64,000 nt of DNA from NCBI RefSeq assembly GCF_029855125.1, contig NZ_CP123229.1:3516501-3580500 (forward strand), read 5' to 3'. Shown piece by piece: positions 22,860 through 45,542 of the stretch. The translations under genes and the position numbers were made by a program. The notes beneath the pieces are model-generated. The model ran no database searches. It was not told where the DNA came from and saw nothing but the letters and a program-made list of their open reading frames with translations. Source of the stretch: Methylocapsa sp. D3K7. Lineage in GTDB: Bacteria > Pseudomonadota > Alphaproteobacteria > Rhizobiales > Beijerinckiaceae. Every line of letters starts with the position of its first letter. Within the stretch, counting starts at the first letter, position 1.

Positions 22860-23210
22860 AACATCAATTCTGTCCGGAAATCCGGTCCGGTCTTACCAAA
22901 TCGTTTCACGTGAAACGTTTTGGTACGATTGGCGATCTGGCCGAAAGGACATGCGCGAGGCGGCCTGATGTCAGGCACGGGCTTTTGGCGCAAGCGCCGT
23001 AGTGCGATAAGGTCGAGCTTGGGTTTTTTTGATTTCTTGACCCTCCATTCTCTTCATCAAAGATCGTCTTAAGCACGCCAGCAGCCTGGGTTGGCGATCC
23101 ATAATCGCCGGGAATGAGGCCAGGGCTTCTTGTTTTTATGCAAGGGGGAGCCTAGGTTCCGGCAACGGCGGCCAGCTTTGGGCGCCACGCGGATTTTGGA
23201 GGTTTTCGCC
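22860..23210. other. Intergenic region between scpB and tatA
   Basis: About 350 bases without a convincing gene. It holds the parS-like palindrome at 22894-22925, a GGCGCAAGCGCC short hairpin near 22987, and the tatA ribosome-binding site TTTTGGAGG at its end. No tRNA or small ORF is supported. Confidence 0.7.
22894..22925. promoter_or_regulatory. parS-like palindrome, copy A
   Basis: A 32-bp near-palindrome centred on GTTTCACGTGAAAC, which agrees with the universal ParB-binding parS core (TGTTTCACGTGAAACA). The outer arms TACCAAA and TTTGGTA extend it beyond a normal 16-bp parS. It sits 35 bases after the scpB stop and is followed by T-rich sequence, so a terminator or REP-like role is also possible. 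Related copies are at 37471-37510 and 40677-40710. Confidence 0.6.
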
Positions 23211-35506: not shown

Positions 35507-36148
35507 ATGAACTGCACCGGTCCGAGTGCTGATCTCGCGGCCCTGGCCAGCCGTATCCGGGCTTGCCGGCTGTGCATCGAGGCCCCGTATAAGGCCCCCC
35601 TCCCGCACGAGCCGCGACCGGTCTTGCGGGTTTCTTCGAGCGCAAAATTGCTGGTGGCAAGCCAGGCGCCAGGCATCCGAGTGCATCTTTCGGGATTGCC
35701 TTTCAACGATGCCTCGGGGGACCGGCTGCGGAGCTGGATGGGCGTGACGCGGGAGGTCTTTTATGATGAAGCGAAGGTGGCGATCGTGCCCATGGGGTTT
35801 TGTTTTCCAGGTCACGATGCGCACAAAGGCGATTTGCCGCCGCGCCGCGAATGCCGCGAGACATGGCACCGCGACTTGTTTTTGGCGTTGCCGCACATTG
35901 AATGCATCCTCGCGATTGGCCGCTACGCCCAGGATTATCATTTTAATCGGCTTGGCAGGCCGCTGCCGAACGGCATTGGGGTTGACGAAACCGTCCGCCG
36001 CTGGCGCGATTTCATGGGCGAGGCGCCGCGGATTATCGCGCTTCCGCATCCCTCCTGGCGCAACAACGGCTGGCTCAAACGCAATCCCTGGTTTGAGCAG
36101 GAGGTCTTGCCGATGCTGCGGACCGAGGTTGCCCGAGCCGTTTCATGA
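35507..36148 (+). CDS. Uracil-DNA glycosylase superfamily protein
   Basis: 213 residues from MNCTGPSADLAALASRIRAC. CRLCIEAPYKAP is followed by a core with LLVASQAPGIRVHLSGLPFNDASGD and a C-terminal LPHPSWRN, where family enzymes have a catalytic-site HPS motif. The GQAPG-type glycine of true family-4 and family-5 enzymes is SQAPG here. These YcdM/UDG-like proteins are predicted nucleic-acid glycosylases, but several have no proven activity. Cysteines that hold Fe-S in family 4 are only partly present. Confidence 0.82.
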   Translation: MNCTGPSADLAALASRIRACRLCIEAPYKAPLPHEPRPVLRVSSSAKLLVASQAPGIRVHLSGLPFNDASGDRLRSWMGVTREVFYDEAKVAIVPMGFCFPGHDAHKGDLPPRRECRETWHRDLFLALPHIECILAIGRYAQDYHFNRLGRPLPNGIGVDETVRRWRDFMGEAPRIIALPHPSWRNNGWLKRNPWFEQEVLPMLRTEVARAVS

Positions 36149-36290
36149 ACGCTCCGGGCTCTAGGCTATAGCGTGGCTTTACAAACATTTCATTTCCCGC
36201 AAATGCTTCACAACGCTTGGTGTTTGGGGCGGGCCTTGCTACACTTCATTGTGATCGAAAAAGACGTAGACATGGCTCCGGGGGCGGGAC

Positions 36291-37451
36291 GTGGGACCAG
36301 CGGATGATGCCACCGGCGGCCTCGTGATTGACGCGCCTCGCACAAGCGTGCGGGCGCGGGCGGATTTGGTGCAAGACGTGGAGATTTTGGACCATGGCTG
36401 GGCGGCCCCTGCGGGGGAGTCCATGGCGGCCCTTGCGAGGAAGGCCGGAGACAAGCCCGTTTACGCGGCTCTCGATCTTGGCACCAACAACTGCCGTCTT
36501 CTGATCGCCCGCGAGGCATCGGAGGGCCGCGGCCAAGATTGTTTTCGCGTCATCGATTCCTTTTCCCGTATCGTCAGATTGGGCGAAGGTCTGTCGCGGA
36601 GCGGCAAGCTGAGCGCCGCCGCGATCGACCGCACTCTTCGTGCCCTCGAAATATGCCGCAACAAGATGCATTCACGGGGAGTCACCCGGGCCCGGCTGAT
36701 CGCGACCGAGGCTTGCCGCTCGGCAAGCAACAGCGACGAATTTCTGGAGAAGGTCTTCGAAACAACCGGCCTCGAACTGGAAATCGTGGACCGGGAAACC
36801 GAGGCGCGGCTGGCGGCCACCGGCTCCGCCTCGCTGGTCGATTCCGCCGCCGAGAGCGCGGTGCTGTTCGACATTGGCGGCGGCTCCTCCGAGCTGGTCT
36901 GGCTTGCCCGGCCAGCGCCCGGAGGCGGGCCATCGAATGGCGCGGCGCTCGACCAGCGAATCCGTTTTTGGGACTCACTCAAGCTCGGGGTTGTCACCTT
37001 GGCGGAGGAGTTCGGCGGGATCGAGGTGTCCGGAGAGACATTCGAGGCCATGGTCGATCACGTTGTCCCGGAACTTGAGGGGTTTGCCGCAAGGGCCGGT
37101 TTGGAACGGCGCTGCCACCGCTTCCATTTGCTCGGAACATCCGGAACCGTGACGACAATCGCTGGGGTCTTTCTCGGTCTGCCCCGCTACGACCGCCGCC
37201 GTGTCGATGGTTTGTGGATGTCGAGTTGCCAGGTGGATCATGCGGTGGCCAGCTTGCGGAACATGACGTACGCGGAGCGCGCCGCCAACGGCTGCATCGG
37301 CCAAACCCGCGCCGATCTCGTGCTTGCCGGCTGTGCCATTCTTGAGGCGATCCGGCGCGTGTTCCCGGCCGATCGCGTTCGCATCGCCGATCGCGGTTTG
37401 CGCGATGGCATGTTGATCCAGCTCATCAGCGCTGACCGGTCACCGGACTAG
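36291..37451 (+). CDS. ppx: Ppx/GppA phosphatase family protein
   Basis: 386 residues from GTG; an ATG at 36423 would remove the first 44 residues, but a long variable leader is usual in Hyphomicrobiales. YAALDLGTNNCRLLIA, ATEACRSASN, FDIGGGSSELVWL and GTSGTVTTIAGV are the ASKHA phosphatase motifs. The protein degrades polyphosphate or hydrolyses pppGpp. In relatives rlmE follows directly in an operon; here 3.5 kb of foreign DNA separates them. A 40-bp palindrome begins 20 bases after the stop. Confidence 0.9.
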   Translation: MGPADDATGGLVIDAPRTSVRARADLVQDVEILDHGWAAPAGESMAALARKAGDKPVYAALDLGTNNCRLLIAREASEGRGQDCFRVIDSFSRIVRLGEGLSRSGKLSAAAIDRTLRALEICRNKMHSRGVTRARLIATEACRSASNSDEFLEKVFETTGLELEIVDRETEARLAATGSASLVDSAAESAVLFDIGGGSSELVWLARPAPGGGPSNGAALDQRIRFWDSLKLGVVTLAEEFGGIEVSGETFEAMVDHVVPELEGFAARAGLERRCHRFHLLGTSGTVTTIAGVFLGLPRYDRRRVDGLWMSSCQVDHAVASLRNMTYAERAANGCIGQTRADLVLAGCAILEAIRRVFPADRVRIADRGLRDGMLIQLISADRSPD

Positions 37452-37752
37452 GCGGATGGCGGCGCTGTCAATCGTACCAAAGTGTTTCACGTGAAACGTT
37501 TTGGTACGATGGGACAGAAAAAACTTTCAAGGATTTGGACGGCGTTTTCGCTTGGGCTTTTGTATGATTGGGCCAAAGGTTTGTACGAACGCTGGGAGTC
37601 ACGCGAGCCGACGCTCACCCATCGTCAAGAGCAGCTAAGACGATCAAATGATGCAACATAAGAAATCAGACGCAGCGTGAGATTGTGCGCTCACACAATA
37701 TGAGTGGTTCGAGGGTTTTCAGGCTGATCGTATCCATTCCGTTAAGTAGTAG
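37452..37752. other. Intergenic region, left edge of the foreign block
   Basis: About 300 bases between ppx and the broken nuclease gene. It contains the 40-bp parS-like palindrome at 37471-37510. The G+C falls toward the right as the AT-rich gene is approached. No gene, tRNA or integrase remnant is seen. Confidence 0.65.
37471..37510. promoter_or_regulatory. parS-like palindrome, copy B
   Basis: A 40-bp inverted repeat with only two mismatched pairs of twenty, centred on TGTTTCACGTGAAACG with ATCGTACCAAA arms. The core fits the universal ParB site. It lies directly after the ppx stop and is the left member of a direct-repeat pair with the copy at 40671-40710 (32 of 40 positions match when both are read from TCAATCG). 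Confidence 0.62.
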
Positions 37753-38678
37753 TTATCCGCAGAGCTTTGCGTTTATAAGTTTGACTATTTTATTCATTTC
37801 TTTGAGCTCATCTTTTGTATAATTATTTCTAGTTTTAAACTCTTCTAAATATTTCTTTTTAAGTTCATCTTTTGCCTTCTTTCGATCGGCGCTTCCTAAC
37901 TTCATAACTAAATCTGTTTCTCGGCCATTTACGGCAGCAAGAACGTTTTCTGGAAGTATTCCTTCCATACAGTCCTTGCCTGCCTGCTTAATTCCAACTG
38001 GCGCGTAATTGGTATTTTCTTTCAATGCTAATCTCGCGAGTGCTGGGCTTACTTCGGCGTGCGCATCCAAATCGTAGGTTAGGAAAACTTTATCAAATTT
38101 TCTTAAAACAAATTGAATTAGCACGGTGTTCTTCAATGTATCTTTGCCACCATAAGGTACGACTTCTATTTCCTTGTTCAATTTTTCACACCCTAAAAGC
38201 CCTCCCTGTAATATCTTAAAATATGCGACATCTAAGTCTCCTTCTACAAGCAACGTTTTGGATTTTCTGGCAGAAAATATTGGACCCAAGGCTTTAAACT
38301 CGTCTGCTCCTATTCCTAAATGATCTGCAAAAGGAGCCATCCAGTTTTCACCGCAAACTTCAATAAGTTTAGTTTCACAGAGTTTTTTATGCTTCACGTC
38401 TCGCGCGAGCAGAATATTTGATTCCGGCTCTTCTTGATTTAGCATATACGGACTATGTGTCGTGGCAATAATTTGGATACCAAATTCATTGGAGAGGGAT
38501 TTAAGCATGCCCCCAAACTCTGCTTGAGCAGATGGGTGAAGAAAACTTTCGGGTTCTTCAATTACGACAAAAGGGGTAATTTTTGTATCTGAAGCGGATG
38601 TCGTTTTGATTCTATTACCTTGTAGAATGGCCATTAAGATATGCGTACGATTTTGAGTGCCGCTTCCCCAATCATTAA
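37753..38678 (-). pseudogene. 3' part of an OLD-family ATPase-nuclease gene split by an IS
   Basis: C-terminal part of an overcoming-lysogenization-defect (OLD) type protein. In frame from the IS junction it reads NDWGSGTQNRTHILMAIL, and continues with Walker B FVVIEEPESFLHP, ATTHSPYML, then a Toprim nuclease domain: KTLLVEGDLDVAYF (glutamate) and FLTYDLDAHAEV (DxD). The DNA is strikingly AT-rich (37801-37860 is 12/60 G+C) unlike its neighbours. OLD proteins, including GajA of the Gabija system, act in phage defence. No GajB-type helicase is present. The fragment may be translated from the ATG at 38634 (294 codons with stop) but lacks the Walker A half. Confidence 0.85.
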
Positions 38679-38698
38679 GAGTCGGTCCGGAAAGTTCA

Positions 38699-39157
38699 TC
38701 AATTCAGACAAAGCTTTCTGAGCGTGAGACGAATTGAGGCGAGACGGAGAAAAGCGAGTGCGTTTCGGGTGAGATTTTCGAAGTCTTTGGCCAAGCGGCG
38801 GCAACGATTAAGCCAAGCGAAGGTGCGTTCGACAACCCAACGTCGCGGCAGAAGCTCAAACCCTTTGGCCTGATCGGAGCGTTTGACGATTTCGATTTGT
38901 ATATGCGGCAGGATTTTGGCCGACGCCTTTTGAAAGACCGGGCCCTGATATCCGCCATCAGCAAAGAGCTTTTGTAAAAACGGATACAAGCCGAACAAGG
39001 TCGACAGAACAAGCACGCCACCATCCCGATCTTGAATGTCGGCGGGATGCACCACTGCATGCAGCAGCAGGCCTAGCGTATCGACGAGGATATGGCGCTT
39101 CTTGCCTTTGATCTTCTTGCCAGCATCATAGCCGCTCGGATCGATGCGGCGCCCCCT
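38699..39157 (-). CDS. IS transposase, second frame (orfB)
   Basis: Entered by a -1 shift from orfA at the CCCCCTTTTT tract (39152-39161 on the plus strand). It then reads RGRRIDPSGYDAGKKIKGKK, RHILVDTLGL, the second DDE aspartate in VHPADIQDRDG and the catalytic glutamate in VVERTFAWLNRCRRLAKDFE. This is the DDE half of an IS5-family transposase. An internal start at 39055 exists, but the fused product is the expected active form. No stop interrupts the frame, so the element may still be mobile. Confidence 0.85.
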   Translation of the reverse strand, partial: RGRRIDPSGYDAGKKIKGKKRHILVDTLGLLLHAVVHPADIQDRDGGVLVLSTLFGLYPFLQKLFADGGYQGPVFQKASAKILPHIQIEIVKRSDQAKGFELLPRRWVVERTFAWLNRCRRLAKDFENLTRNALAFLRLASIRLTLRKLCLN

Positions 39158-39534
39158 TTTTCCGCGCTCTTTACGCTCTGGCTGTCGATGACGCAGGCCG
39201 TCGGGCTCGCTTCACGATCCATGGCTTCGCGACACTTCACGTAGAGCGCGTGATGAATGCGATCCAGCGTGCCGTCCCAGTTCCAAAGGTCGAAATAACC
39301 AAACAGCGTGCTCTTGGGCGGCAGATCTTTGGGAACGTAACGCCACTGGCATCCCGTGCTCAGCACATACATGAGACCGTTCACGATTTCCCGCGGCTCA
39401 ACAGAGCGCTTGCGTCCGCCACGTTTGGCCGGTGGAATAATCGGCTCGATGTGCGACCACTCATCGTCCGTCAGATCGCTCGGATAGCGCAGTTTGTCAC
39501 GATTGTATTTCGGGCGGTTTTCGGACGTCCACAT
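39073..39534 (-). CDS. IS transposase, first frame (orfA)
   Basis: 153 residues, begins MWTSENRPKYNRDKLRYPSD with the LTDDEWSHIEPIIPPAKRGG DUF4096-type N-terminal region, then GCQWRYVPKDLPPKSTLFGY and the first catalytic aspartate in ACVIDSQSVKSAEKGG. After the slippery tract the zero frame runs only about 25 more codons of nonsense-like sequence to a stop; the -1 frame carries the real continuation. Same orientation as the interrupted gene. Confidence 0.88.
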   Translation of the reverse strand: MWTSENRPKYNRDKLRYPSDLTDDEWSHIEPIIPPAKRGGRKRSVEPREIVNGLMYVLSTGCQWRYVPKDLPPKSTLFGYFDLWNWDGTLDRIHHALYVKCREAMDREASPTACVIDSQSVKSAEKGGAASIRAAMMLARRSKARSAISSSIR

Positions 39535-39614
39535 TGGCGGCCTCTCATCGAATCAGGCAGCCGCCAATGAATCACAAATGATTCATCCGATTCAACTACT
39601 TCCCGGACGGACAC

Positions 39615-40371
39615 TAAGGGGCACATCAACATTCTGATCTTTTAGATTTATACTGATTGGCATGCGCCCCATCGCAAGACCTTCAGGTGTTGATGCCTCC
39701 ACATCGTATTTTTCGGCAAGTCTGCCAAGTATATTACTTAAACGACGTGTATGATCTTTAGCCAATCTACGCATCTTTTGTTGTATCGTTTTTTGGGCGT
39801 TACTGAGAGCCCTTTTCTCGTCCGCAGACATCATAAAGTCATAAAACAAACGAGTACGACTGTGGCCATAATATAGCGCCTCATGAGAAGTCGTAGAGTT
39901 GTATAGAAACATAATATTTGAATCTTTTAGTTTTTTGTCTATCTCTTTCGTGGCCTGTTCGTCTATTTTATTTTGGTCAACAGACATAGTTACATCGACA
40001 GTGTCTGATTCTGTTATCGAATAAGAGATAACTAATGCAACAATCTCATTTGGAATTGTTATGGTTGCAATTTTTTCTATAAATGAAATTAGGGCTGGGT
40101 CTTCAGGTTTTGTGAGTTCAAGTGTATAAGTGATATTTATTGGGAATTTATCCTTAAGCCATTGTGTCTTTTCTAGTTTATATTCAAAGCCGCCCTGATT
40201 TATAGCCCAAGGTAAGGATGATTCTTCTTCAAATAATTTCGATAACAGCCTTATGAGACAGGATTTTCCGGCGTTATTTCGCCCAGAGATAGTGCAGTAT
40301 CCGTTCGAAAAATTTATGGTCAAATCCTGTAGTGTACGGTAATTCTTCGTGGATATAGATTTTATCCGCAT
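39615..40371 (-). pseudogene. 5' part of the OLD-family ATPase-nuclease gene split by an IS
   Basis: N-terminal ATPase half. MRIKSISTKNYRTLQDL is the SMC/RecF-like start, with Walker A GRNNAGKSCLI at residues 30-40. The host sequence runs to NVDVPL at the IS; the last residues of the open frame (SVRPGSS) are IS-derived. Start ATG at 40371 has GGGGGAC upstream. DNA is AT-rich (39961-40020 is 21/60 G+C). With the 3' part the original protein would be 559 residues: ATPase core split by a dimerisation region, followed by Toprim. A natural role in phage or plasmid defence is inferred from the family. Confidence 0.85.
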
Positions 40372-40912
40372 ATAGACGTCCCCCGATAAATTTTCTTGTG
40401 TGTGTTAAGCATAATATGTAAAAATTTAAGCTCGTAATAGTAAAGTAATACGACATCAGGAGGTGCCCACAACTTCGCTGCTCGCGGCGTTATAGATACT
40501 TGACTTCATAATTCAGGTCAGCTGGCCGAATTAAGGGATTTCTCAGGGACGCGCCGGCATTACCGATAAATCAAAGCTCCCAGCATAGATCTAATTTCGT
40601 TGCCGCGATCCCGCCAAAAAGCCGGATTTATACATCGCCGCGCCTTGCAAAAATTCTCTAGCGCAAAGTATCAATCGGTCCAAGTTGTTTCACGTGACCC
40701 ATTTTGGTCCCAGCAACCAGACAAAAGGCTCGCACGGCGATCACGCAAATTCTTTTACTTACCAGTTTCGAAAAAGCGAACCGAAATTTTGAACTGTCCC
40801 TCCTCCAAAACTTTGCGGGACTTTCGCCGCATGGCATTATAAAGCTCCCGTTTGGCGCTTCCTCTTTTTAGGTTCGCCGCATGATCCCAAAAAGTCCGTA
40901 CCTTTATGGATC
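40372..40912. other. Intergenic region, right edge of the foreign block
   Basis: About 540 bases without a supported gene. The first 90 are AT-rich and should hold the promoter of the OLD-type gene. The parS-like copy C is at 40677-40710 and a small repeat hairpin overlaps the right end. G+C rises toward rlmE. Two in-frame ORFs of 60-80 codons here have no family features. Confidence 0.6.
40677..40710. promoter_or_regulatory. Degenerate parS-like palindrome, copy C
   Basis: Centred on TTGTTTCACGTGACCCAT. The left half-site GTTTCACGTGA is intact and the right half has decayed (ACCC in place of AAAC). Outer arms GGTCCAA and TTTGGTCC are kept. With seven more bases (TCAATCG) on the left it forms a 40-bp direct repeat with copy B across the foreign block. 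Confidence 0.5.
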
Positions 40913-40916
40913 ATGC
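40879..40916. repeat. Short REP-like hairpin at the rlmE start
   Basis: GCATGATCC at 40879-40887 and GGATCATGC at 40908-40916 form a perfect 9-bp stem, with AAAAAGT in the loop. It is akin to the widespread Hyphomicrobiales GAGCATGATCC...AAAAAG intergenic repeats. Its right arm contains the annotated ATG of rlmE (40913), so either the hairpin affects initiation or the true start is the GTG at 40931. Confidence 0.55.
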
Positions 40917-41638
40917 TCTTGGATATCACCGTGACCGATACAAAATCCTCCTCCGGCCGCGAAGGCGGGCGTTCGCTCAAGACGCGGGTGAAGACTGCGC
41001 GCAAACGCTCGCTGTCCTCGACCTTGTGGCTTGAGCGGCAGCTGAATGATCCTTATGTGGCGAAGGCCAAGCGGGAGGGGTTCCGGTCGCGGGCGGCTTA
41101 TAAGCTGATCGAGATCGACGAGCGCTATCATTTTTTGAAACCCGGCCAGCGGGTTGTCGATCTGGGCGCGGCCCCCGGCGGCTGGTCGCAGGTGGCGGTG
41201 GGCAAGGTTGGCTCGGAGCAAGGCAAGGGCAGAGTCATTGGCATCGATCTTCTCGACACCGATCCCATGCCGGGCGCCGAATTCAAGGTCATGGATTTTC
41301 TGGCTGAGGATGCACCGCAGCAGCTGATGGAATGGCTCGGCGGCAAGGCCGATGTCGTGCTCTCCGACATGGCGGCGAATGCCACTGGGCACAAGAAAAC
41401 CGATCAACTGCGCATCATCGGCCTCGTCGAACTTGCCGCCGATTTTGCCTGCGAGGTTCTCGCCGAGGGCGGCGCCTTTCTCGCCAAGGTGATCCAGGGC
41501 GGCACCGAGCACGAGTTGCTCGCCCGGCTGAAGCGCGAATTCGCCGCCGTGCGCCATGTGAAGCCGCAGGCCAGCCGCGCCGGTTCGGCCGAGCTTTATG
41601 TGCTGGCGACCGGCTTTAGAGGCCCCACGAAACGCTAG
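40913..41638 (+). CDS. rlmE: 23S rRNA (uridine-2552) 2'-O-methyltransferase
   Basis: 241 residues. [20 protein letters not shown] carries the first catalytic lysine, [15 protein letters not shown] is the SAM motif, [17 protein letters not shown] the catalytic aspartate region and AKVIQGG the second lysine: the K-D-K-E FtsJ pattern is complete. It methylates U2552 in the 50S A-loop. The start is ambiguous between ATG 40913, inside a repeat hairpin, and GTG 40931. The gene has been separated from ppx by the foreign block and may have lost its original promoter. Confidence 0.94.
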
Positions 41639-41642
41639 AGCG

Positions 41643-41748
41643 CTTTCCGATCAGGTGGAATCACCTGATCGGAAAGAAATCGCTCAAAATCAAAGAGCTG
41701 GAGCATGTTCTGATCGAAAAAGTCGATCAACTTTTTCGGAACATGCTC
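41643..41748. repeat. Double-hairpin REP-like intergenic repeat
   Basis: Two back-to-back inverted repeats fill the space between the convergent rlmE and DHA2 exporter. The first (41643-41676) is a perfect 15-bp stem, CTTTCCGATCAGGTG with a GAAT loop. The second (41701-41748) pairs GAGCATGTTC with the closing arm at its end and CGAAAAAGT with ACTTTTTCG. This unit occurs in many Hyphomicrobiales intergenic regions. It could act as a two-way terminator. Confidence 0.75.
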
Positions 41749-41758
41749 TGAGGCTCGT

Positions 41759-43180
41759 TCATTGCCCAGCGGGCGCGATGGCCTCCGAGGGTTCCGAGGG
41801 GTTTGCAATCAGCTCCGCGCCGGCCTCCGAGGGGAGGCGGAAGAAGATGGGCGCCGCGCTCAGGGAGACCAGCGCCATCGTCACAAAAGCCCATTTGAAA
41901 TTTTCGGGCGAAAGAACAGCGACGCCCGGGTTCAGCAGGGCAAAGCCTTGCAGCGCGCCAGCACCGGCGGTGACGCCAAGACTTAATGACAATTGCTGGG
42001 CGGCGGACGAGAAGCTGACGGCCCGGCTCATTCTTGAATTGTCGATGTCGGCAAAGACAATCGCATTGAGGCTGGTGAACTCGAGCGAGCGCACGAAGCC
42101 GCACGTCAGCAGCACCCCCATCATGAGAACCACTGGAGTCGAAGGTGTGAAGAAGCCGTAACAAGCAAGCAAGGCGGCGGTCAATATCGCGTCATAGACG
42201 AGCACGCGGCGAAAGCCGAACAGCCGCAGGATCGGCGCCGCCGTGGCTTTCATGGCCATGGCCCCCACCGAGGCGATGAACGTGACCGAACCCGATTGGA
42301 ATGCGTTCATGCCAAAACCGGCTTGCAACATGAGCGGCAGCAGAAAGGGGATCGAGCCAATTCCGATGCGGAACAAAGACCCTCCCATCACACTCGCGCG
42401 GAAGGTTTTGATTTTGAGAAGGGTGAGATCGATCAGCGGAAACGCGGTGCGGCGGGCGTGCCAGACATAGGTGATCAAAGCAGTAGCGCCCAAGGCGGTA
42501 AGAAAGACCGCGGCTTCCCAAGGGAGGAGGCCGCGCCCGGCGCCGCCAAGCCCGAACAACAAAAAAGCCAGCCCGGAGCCGCAGAGGAGGAAGCCCTTAA
42601 CGTCGAGCGGCCACGTGCCTTCGCCCGTGATGTCTTCCACGAAGAGGGTCGCGAGGACAATGCCGGCAGCGCCGATTGGCACATTGATCCAGAAGATCCA
42701 GCGCCAGTGAAAATAGGTTGTGATGAAGCCGCCGAGCAGCGGCCCCGCCACCGGCCCCAGAAGCGCGGGGATCGTCAGATAGGAGAGCGCGTTGACAAGT
42801 TCGGTGCGTTCAACGGAGCGCAAAAGCACGAGCCGTCCAACCGGAACCATCATCGCGCCGCCGAGACCTTGGACCACACGGGCGGCGATAAATCCCGGCA
42901 GGGTCGACGCCATGCCGCACAGGATGGAGCCCAGGGTGAAGACAAGAATGGCGATCCGGAAGATTTTGCGGGCGCCAAAACGGTCGGCCACCCAACCGCT
43001 CGCCGGGATGAAAATCGCGAGCGACACGAGATAGGAGGTCAGGGCAAGTTTGAGGGAAATCGGATCTTCATGAAGGTCGATCGCAATCGCGGGCAGCGAT
43101 GTCGCGATGACGGTCGAGTCGAGATTTTCCATGAATAAGGCGCAAGCGACGGTGAGCGCCGAAATGAGATAGGACGGCAA
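41759..43180 (-). CDS. DHA2-family MFS exporter
   Basis: About 473 residues from TTG at 43180, which has GGGAG nine bases upstream; the frame is open to 43252 but without a better signal. VACALFMENLDSTVIATSLP is the DHA2 helix-1 motif, GWVADRFGARKIFR motif A and LTIPALLGPVAGPLLGG motif C of drug:H+ antiporters. About 13-14 membrane helices are expected. It probably exports small toxic compounds; the substrate is unknown. It is divergent from guaB. Bases 43181-43573 between the two starts hold no recognised feature. Confidence 0.85.
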   Translation of the reverse strand: MPSYLISALTVACALFMENLDSTVIATSLPAIAIDLHEDPISLKLALTSYLVSLAIFIPASGWVADRFGARKIFRIAILVFTLGSILCGMASTLPGFIAARVVQGLGGAMMVPVGRLVLLRSVERTELVNALSYLTIPALLGPVAGPLLGGFITTYFHWRWIFWINVPIGAAGIVLATLFVEDITGEGTWPLDVKGFLLCGSGLAFLLFGLGGAGRGLLPWEAAVFLTALGATALITYVWHARRTAFPLIDLTLLKIKTFRASVMGGSLFRIGIGSIPFLLPLMLQAGFGMNAFQSGSVTFIASVGAMAMKATAAPILRLFGFRRVLVYDAILTAALLACYGFFTPSTPVVLMMGVLLTCGFVRSLEFTSLNAIVFADIDNSRMSRAVSFSSAAQQLSLSLGVTAGAGALQGFALLNPGVAVLSPENFKWAFVTMALVSLSAAPIFFRLPSEAGAELIANPSEPSEAIAPAGQ

Positions 43181-43465: not shown

Positions 43466-45067
<1,602 letters not shown>

Positions 45068-45104
45068 GCCAAGGGCTGAACACTTTCGCTGGGATGACGG
45101 CCAT

Positions 45105-45542
45105 ATGAGCCTGCAATCAATTCTGCTGCCGCTTTTCGTTCAAGTTGGGCTGACGTTTTTCCTTATTCTCTGGATGGCGAAGGAACGCACGGGTCTTCTC
45201 AAGCGCCGCGCGGTCAATTGGCGGGACATCGCGCTGCGCCAAAATCCTTGGCCCGGCCGCGCCCAGCAAATTGGCAATTGCTTCGAAAATCAGTTCGAGA
45301 TCCCGGTCCTGTTCTATGTCCTCGTGGTGCTGGCGATCATCACCAAAAAGGCCGATCTTCCCTTTGTTGTCATGGAATGGCTTTTCGCCGCGACGCGAAT
45401 TGCGCATGCCATTGTCTTCACAACCTCGAACTATGTGCCGTTGCGCGGCCAGTTCTATATCGCAGGAACGCTTATTTTGCTGCTGATGTGGGGCCTCTTT
45501 GCGGTCCGGATTTTTGCTGGCTCCTCGATTGGAGCATTATGA
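45105..45542 (+). CDS. MAPEG family membrane protein
   Basis: 145 residues from MSLQSILLPLFVQVGLTFFL. Four membrane helices and the loop RQNPWPGRAQQIGNCFENQFE then PVLFYVLVVLAII fit the MAPEG fold (eicosanoid and glutathione metabolism in eukaryotes). The bacterial members are of unknown substrate. The frame is open upstream inside guaB, so the ATG at 45105 is chosen. Located between guaB and the RsmB-type gene, usual for the group. Confidence 0.82.
   Translation: MSLQSILLPLFVQVGLTFFLILWMAKERTGLLKRRAVNWRDIALRQNPWPGRAQQIGNCFENQFEIPVLFYVLVVLAIITKKADLPFVVMEWLFAATRIAHAIVFTTSNYVPLRGQFYIAGTLILLLMWGLFAVRIFAGSSIGAL

Follow-up and report, generated by a model that had tools for sequence, protein, structure and literature searches.

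Probable transfer of a stand-alone OLD-family gene and its inactivation by an IS5-family insertion sequence in Methylocapsa sp. D3K7

The 4.15-Mb, single-contig genome of Methylocapsa sp. D3K7 carries, between ppx and rlmE, an OLD-family gene that is divided by an insertion sequence (IS) of the IS5 family. The gene lies in a stretch of 64,000 nucleotides (NZ_CP123229.1, positions 3,516,501 to 3,580,500; G000:C1:3516501-3580500), referred to here as the window, whose numbering is used below. With a probability of about 0.92, the two open reading frames (ORFs) on either side of the IS are the parts of one OLD gene that was acquired by transfer and then split by an active IS5-family element. A stand-alone, class 1-like OLD gene, coding for an ATP-binding cassette (ABC)-type ATPase with a C-terminal Toprim nuclease domain, would have arrived between ppx and rlmE, and the element then inserted two codons ahead of the ABC-signature-like motif WGSGTQ. 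The product read from the native start keeps Walker A and loses the signature, Walker B, the H-loop and the Toprim domain, and with these losses neither an ATPase site nor a nuclease is to be expected of it. The positions of all features are collected in Table 1.

Both pieces of the gene are still open, with no internal stop in either. The 5' ORF (39592-40371) follows the native frame into the IS and ends at 39592, its tail past the break consisting of one chimeric codon and six foreign residues, and the 3' frame (37753-38673) has 306 codons and a stop. By count, the whole protein would have 559 residues (252 + 1 + 306), a figure reached by arithmetic and not from a joined gene. Homologues that are whole at this point have been found. 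In Beijerinckia mobilis (G017), the 5' piece corresponds to G017:C7:65058-65813 (64%) and the 3' piece to 65814-66734 (71%), the two matches directly abutting within one uninterrupted frame. A partial metagenomic protein, P0249, likewise runs through the break without interruption, with 72% identity across the 178 residues ahead of it and 90% across the 227 that follow, and the homologue P0242 also reads through the junction. The initial annotation had taken the two ORFs as halves of one gene, with Walker A in the 5' part, Walker B and a Toprim domain (EGDLD, DxD) in the 3' part, no stops collected in either half, 559 residues in all and an asparagine at the junction (PLN). All of this agrees with the present results; the listed homologues read through the break, the motifs lie where they had been placed, B. 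mobilis reads through at the same place, and both B. mobilis and P0249 have N where the break falls.

A search with the intact B. mobilis protein scored 7996 candidates, of which 1460 were homologues at E <= 0.001; the 120 of these that were listed are single chains of 558-599 amino acids. Walker A, WGSG and EEPES were found in one chain by a strict pattern in 114 of the 120, the other six having a one-letter variant in one motif; the count depends on how the pattern is worded, and a differently written version gave 113/120. The best match besides the query itself was 62% among the matches listed, none of which was an intact allele of the window's own species. Plasmid and phage collections yielded no close homologue, their best matches being 22-34% identical over part of the protein. 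A viral contig (L180:4627-7677) carries an OLD homologue of 40% identity adjoining a phage integrase and is a possible vehicle.

The ends of the IS at 38679 and 39614 could be fixed independently of the initial annotation, since the genome holds nine copies whose surrounding DNA differs throughout and whose edges show a repeated TNA triplet; they fall where they had been given, as does the TAA on either side. Eight copies, this one included, are identical over positions 1-936, and the ninth is 96% identical (the other eight are L002-L009, seven identical and one at 96%). The duplication is TAA at six of the nine sites and TTA at three. A G follows the right triplet at 9/9 sites, and the alternative is thus a four-base TNAG duplication with a 935-bp element, for which the empty site is identical. 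The IS has the DDE transposase, terminal inverted repeats and short target duplication of the IS5 family, and it shares with elements of the NF033580 type the two-frame DDE transposase, the length of 936 bp, the TNA duplication and the A5G5 tract, with no notable difference. The pattern for the exact A5G5 tract gave no match in the 96% copy. The division of the transposase into two frames is presumed to reflect programmed frameshifting and not damage, since the identical copies have evidently moved. The element is a candidate member of the IS427 group, which is defined by a TNA duplication and a two-frame transposase, and both features are seen here. Plasmid matches to the IS came from five records in Rhizobium, Bradyrhizobium and Shinella, at 72-77% identity.

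The assignment to the OLD family, also made in the initial annotation, is borne out by several comparisons. A profile of 40 homologues gave as its best solved structure the OLD protein of Thermus scotoductus (TsOLD), 6p74 (E 6.3e-15). Foldseek with a model of the B. mobilis protein ranked 6p74 first as well (E 1.5e-15), with low template-modelling scores (0.34-0.37), and in VIA-align 6p74 tied with Rad50/SMC heads and GajA. The model is of fair quality (predicted local distance difference test score, pLDDT, 75.7) and contains a long helix at 182-217, a candidate dimerisation-domain region; residues 158-181, 220-229 and 231-254 have pLDDT below 50. In PADLOC, the 3' piece matched Old best (2.1e-20), and the 5' piece matched AriA (9e-16) and GajA (1.7e-12) ahead of Old (2.3e-6). 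In Pfam, the 3' piece also matches AAA_21, reaches OLD-like_TOPRIM only below the cut-off, and scores 18.1 against PF11398 (DUF2813), for which the cut-off is 21. Among four whole homologues scanned, PF11398, which we take to be the YbjD family, exceeded its cut-off in all four, and OLD-like_TOPRIM exceeded its threshold in two.

The conserved catalytic positions that were checked have all been retained, each in the 5' or the 3' piece; in B. mobilis numbering they are Walker A G30-S37, Q69, W254-Q259, E291, E292, H325, E397, D401, K430, D431, D454, D456 and E490. The Toprim residues E397, D401, D454, D456 and E490 are identical in the 3' piece and in 22/22 homologues, and the column of R504 holds R in 17, K in three and Q or S in two of 22 sequences. 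TsOLD itself relies on E377, D381, D431, D433, S478, E480 and R487 (PMC7049728). Judged by eye and not by structure, S478 of TsOLD corresponds to C488 here, and the basic residue after the last glutamate, also placed by eye, stands at 14 residues (R504) as against 7 in TsOLD. Identity to TsOLD is 17-18% in structural alignments.

Taken together, the two pieces contain an ABC-type ATPase at the N-terminus, complete with its Walker A, Walker B and H-loop, and at the C-terminus a Toprim domain that has E, D and D-x-D; among the neighbours scanned, the gene stands alone, without a helicase or reverse transcriptase. Judging from these features, it appears to be a stand-alone, class 1-like OLD, the stand-alone arrangement being that of class 1 (PMC7049728, PMC10568477). 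It resembles the class 1 proteins TsOLD (6p74), P2 Old and E. coli YbjD in its single gene, its domain order and its acidic set (E, D, D-x-D and a later E), with 559 residues by count as against 525 in TsOLD, and differs from these known systems in that the gene is broken. Gabija GajA (class 2) has the same ATPase-Toprim plan, and many PADLOC GajA models were matched; a Gabija reading was rejected, its UvrD-like helicase partner not being found among the seven window neighbours scanned. The OLD protein of Retron-Eco8 (class 3) shares the two-domain plan, and Eco8 chains occur in the Foldseek list; a retron reading was also rejected, with no reverse transcriptase among those seven neighbours and no Rfam match at the gathering threshold in window positions 36000-42000.

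Partners were also sought around the gene in relatives, at 74 loci (seven weak loci, L173-L179, having been excluded beforehand). The largest of the 25 neighbour clusters listed, named by eye from one sequence each, span seven loci (integrase), five (ABC-transporter-like) and three. From 231 neighbour ORFs, 100 were hand-picked for scanning; Pfam found five phage integrases and four N6-methylases among the first 25 of 83 families, and in PADLOC no model in the first 25 of 188 families had more than four members, most of them methylases. A helicase could still occur in the families beyond these. These counts, taken without a control set, suggest a weak association of the OLD relatives with mobile and defence genes. 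A type I restriction methylase (HsdM-like) stands beside the OLD homologue in 3/74 relatives (L117, L130, L160).

Arrival by transfer, as had been proposed in the initial annotation, is the most likely origin of the gene at the ppx-rlmE site, given its low guanine-plus-cytosine (GC) content and its absence at the same place in the relatives examined. The native OLD parts have 38.4% GC, compared with 59.8% in the rest of the window. RlmE was found in 58/60 genomes, and 30 loci were kept, the window's among them. In 26 of the 29 relatives so represented, ppx neighbours rlmE with 9-203 bp between matched ends and without the 3.46-kb segment that separates them in the window (3,461 bp); in the other three, no ppx was found within 1.5 kb. 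Of these, G002 has another ORF between the two genes, and G011 has no ppx in 11 kb. Apart from the window's genome with its split copy, only two of 149 genomes searched gave a long match: B. mobilis, where the OLD gene is whole, and G001, of the same genus, where it is a remnant. Other matches were short ATPase stretches. The B. mobilis gene is also AT-rich (36.4% GC, flanks 61.1%). Across relatives, the OLD gene was below its flanks in GC at 64/65 loci (median -14.3 points), including 38/38 where the flanks exceed 55% GC; nine of the 74 loci had been dropped because the gene span or the flanks were too short. ORFs of more than 750 bp in the same flanks, used as controls, were below the flank in 86/259 cases, a control that is not independent because these ORFs belong to the flanks compared. 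The depressed GC across hosts suggests repeated transfer within this OLD branch.

The inactivation appears to be recent, as had also been supposed; this is well supported by the eight identical IS copies together with the two open frames, and it gives an upper bound and not a date in years, since gene conversion among the copies could mimic recency. No difference was seen over 8 x 936 bp (7,488 bases), which on a star tree places the upper bound at 0.0004 substitutions per site since the burst. Dating from nonsynonymous and synonymous change (dN/dS) was tried and gave no date, the synonymous sites being saturated (proportion of synonymous differences, pS, 0.83 and 0.89; nonsynonymous, pN, 0.21 and 0.18). 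At the sequence level, the comparison of pN with pS shows past purifying selection on the OLD gene.

The main evidence in the other direction comes from homologues of the 3' part alone. A search with the 3' ORF returned 424 proteins. Among the 120 matches listed, WGSG is present in 81, preceded in 69 of these by 20 residues or more, and absent from 39, including the window's own ORF. Most of these 39 lie on contigs of a few kb, where contig ends can cut genes, and 3'-only homologues also occur on long contigs: P0267 (305 amino acids on 100,521 bp), P0289 (258 on 62,280 bp), P0307 (290 on 34,449 bp) and P0339 (305 on 1,211,236 bp). Both the WGSG-less matches and the long-contig cases weigh against a single split gene; they slightly lower our confidence in it and slightly raise that in two separate genes. 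None of the four is close to the window gene, the best, P0267, being 63% identical. The new N-terminus of P0267 lies near the position where the window gene is broken. The 3'-only homologues are probably further truncated copies, since the full-length form is the rule. The initial annotation had named close homologues with the two halves as separate genes as the observation that would count against it; full-length single chains did prove to be the rule, and the matches without WGSG, some on long contigs, make the outcome on this point a mixed one.

Two other explanations of the locus have to be weighed against this. The two ORFs could each be a gene in its own right, say a split ATPase and a separate Toprim protein, with the IS between them by chance. 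Each piece does have an ORF with its own ATG, and the 3'-only homologues on long contigs just described fit such an arrangement. It is nevertheless extremely unlikely, because the homologues of B. mobilis, P0249 and P0242 run straight across the junction, a single chain holds Walker A, WGSG and EEPE in each of the 120 full-length homologues listed, most WGSG-less matches may owe their form to contig ends, the native 5' piece breaks off within the ATPase fold, and the duplicated TAA is the mark of an insertion. It is also conceivable that the split gene is a reversible switch, from which the IS excises precisely, or that the 3' piece is still expressed as a Toprim protein on its own, perhaps under a promoter carried by the IS. 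The 3' piece has an in-frame ATG at 38634, and the resulting 293-residue ORF, although it lacks Walker A, still has Walker B and the acidic residues of Toprim. Neither piece contains an internal stop, other 3'-only homologues exist, and part of E. coli YbjD suffices for phage phenotypes (PMC13261556). The sufficient part of YbjD is, however, the ATPase region and not Toprim, and here it is the ATPase that is split; recency alone explains the lack of decay, and the window's own ORF (P0241, one member) is the only split form of this kind among the 120 listed matches. A switch or functional remnant is therefore regarded as very unlikely, and inactivation of a single transferred gene is preferred.

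Other broken or partial copies have been observed. The remnant in G001 (L017:1501-1776; G001:C79:58929-59204) is 57% identical over about 96 C-terminal residues, has five stops and lies on a contig other than that of its rlmE. Internal stops or frame breaks occur in 5/70 near-full-length copies (L115, L126, L152, L165, L172), decay and sequencing or assembly error not being separated in this count, and L123, L167, L169 and L171 hold only part of the gene. From the GC difference at 64/65 loci, the rarity in 149 genomes, the G001 remnant, the five broken copies and the 3'-only homologues on long contigs, a wider proposal can be drawn, in which the OLD branch is AT-rich cargo that repeatedly arrives in GC-rich hosts and is repeatedly broken as costly, the window showing one such death. 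We hold this generalization to be doubtful.

The immediate flanks of the OLD segment are ppx and rlmE. A family scan of seven neighbouring ORFs, to which ORF 44907-45542 did not belong, identified a histidine kinase, uracil-DNA glycosylase (UDG), Ppx/GppA, FtsJ (RlmE), a major facilitator superfamily (MFS) transporter, IMP dehydrogenase (IMPDH) and RsmB. A dispersed palindrome, CGTACCAAANNGTTTCACGTGAAACNNTTTGGTACG, is present in 56 genome copies at <=3 mismatches, and its centre resembles the ParB parS core. Three copies of the parS-like core are in the window, one at 22902-22917 and two bracketing the OLD segment (Table 1). Among 14 congeners, the palindrome has 11-22 copies in four and none in ten. 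With <=1 mismatch allowed, this genome has 43 occurrences of the 16-base core; five congeners have 15-54 and the other nine 1-5. A parB gene at G000:C1:2220327 has two parS-like cores about 4 kb away. The pattern may represent a REP-like (repetitive extragenic palindrome) spread of a candidate centromere motif.

Table 1. Coordinates of the split OLD gene, the insertion sequence and associated features in the window
Feature	Position	Strand	Basis or remark
Segment between ppx and rlmE	37452..40912	.	Carries split OLD gene and IS; absent there in relatives examined
5' part of OLD gene, 252 native codons and one base	39615..40371	-	Pfam AAA_15 3e-14
3' part of OLD gene, two bases of split codon, 306 codons, stop	37753..38675	-	Pfam AAA_15 7.8e-15
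Walker A, GRNNAGKS	40261..40284	-	5' piece
ABC-signature-like motif WGSGTQ	38653..38670	-	3' piece; begins after five native bases from the break
Walker B, VVIEE	38554..38568	-	3' piece
Toprim motif EGDLD	38230..38244	-	3' piece
Toprim motif DLD	38065..38073	-	3' piece
IS5-family insertion sequence, 936 bp	38679..39614	- (transposase strand)	Eight identical genomic copies including this one; NCBIfam transpos_IS5_3, Pfam DDE_Tnp_1, DUF4096
Target-site duplication TAA, left copy	38676..38678	.	Read directly
Target-site duplication TAA, right copy	39615..39617	.	Read directly
Left terminal inverted repeat of IS	38679..38695	.	14/17 bases matched
Right terminal inverted repeat of IS	39598..39614	.	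Pairs with left repeat, 14/17
Transposase first frame (DUF4096 half)	39073..39534	-	ORF list, Pfam/NCBIfam matches
Transposase second frame (DDE half)	38699..39055	-	ORF list, Pfam/NCBIfam matches
GGAAAAAGGGGGC tract, presumed programmed frameshift site between transposase frames	39151..39163	-	Common to the eight identical copies
parS-like core within dispersed palindrome, left side of OLD segment	37483..37498	.	
Degenerate parS-like core, right side of OLD segment	40686..40701	.	

By analogy with TsOLD, P2 Old and GajA, the whole protein would most likely have been a dimeric ATPase that senses an infection-linked signal, upon which the Toprim domain cuts nucleic acid. The label of a defence-type gene follows from family resemblance; phage defence is a fairly likely role for the whole protein, and another role in DNA maintenance is a lesser possibility. 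P2 Old acts against lambda and is lethal to recBC mutants (PMC10568477), and its cleavage of tRNA is cited in PMC13261556. The same paper reports that induced YbjD gives phage phenotypes for which Toprim is dispensable. An archaeal OLD relative has been reported to act in the cell cycle rather than in defence (PMC12796447). A 2023 review lists broad phage defence by a stand-alone cellular OLD protein as an open question (PMC10568477), which YbjD and, as cited, the OLD of V. cholerae have begun to answer (PMC13261556).

The gene family and the element that broke the gene are both of known kinds, and the case is in that respect ordinary. What it adds is an intact homologue in a cultured organism, an AT-richness that recurs from host to host, further copies that look broken and the palindromes with a parS-like core. 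Overall, the locus offers a clean case of an IS inactivating a defence-type gene that had come in by transfer, in a soil bacterium allied to the methane-eating Methylocella. It also draws attention to a stand-alone OLD branch that is widespread (the 1460 homologues come from one search) and has an intact member in cultured Beijerinckia mobilis. That the branch is consistently AT-rich in its different hosts makes its repeated transfer easily testable.

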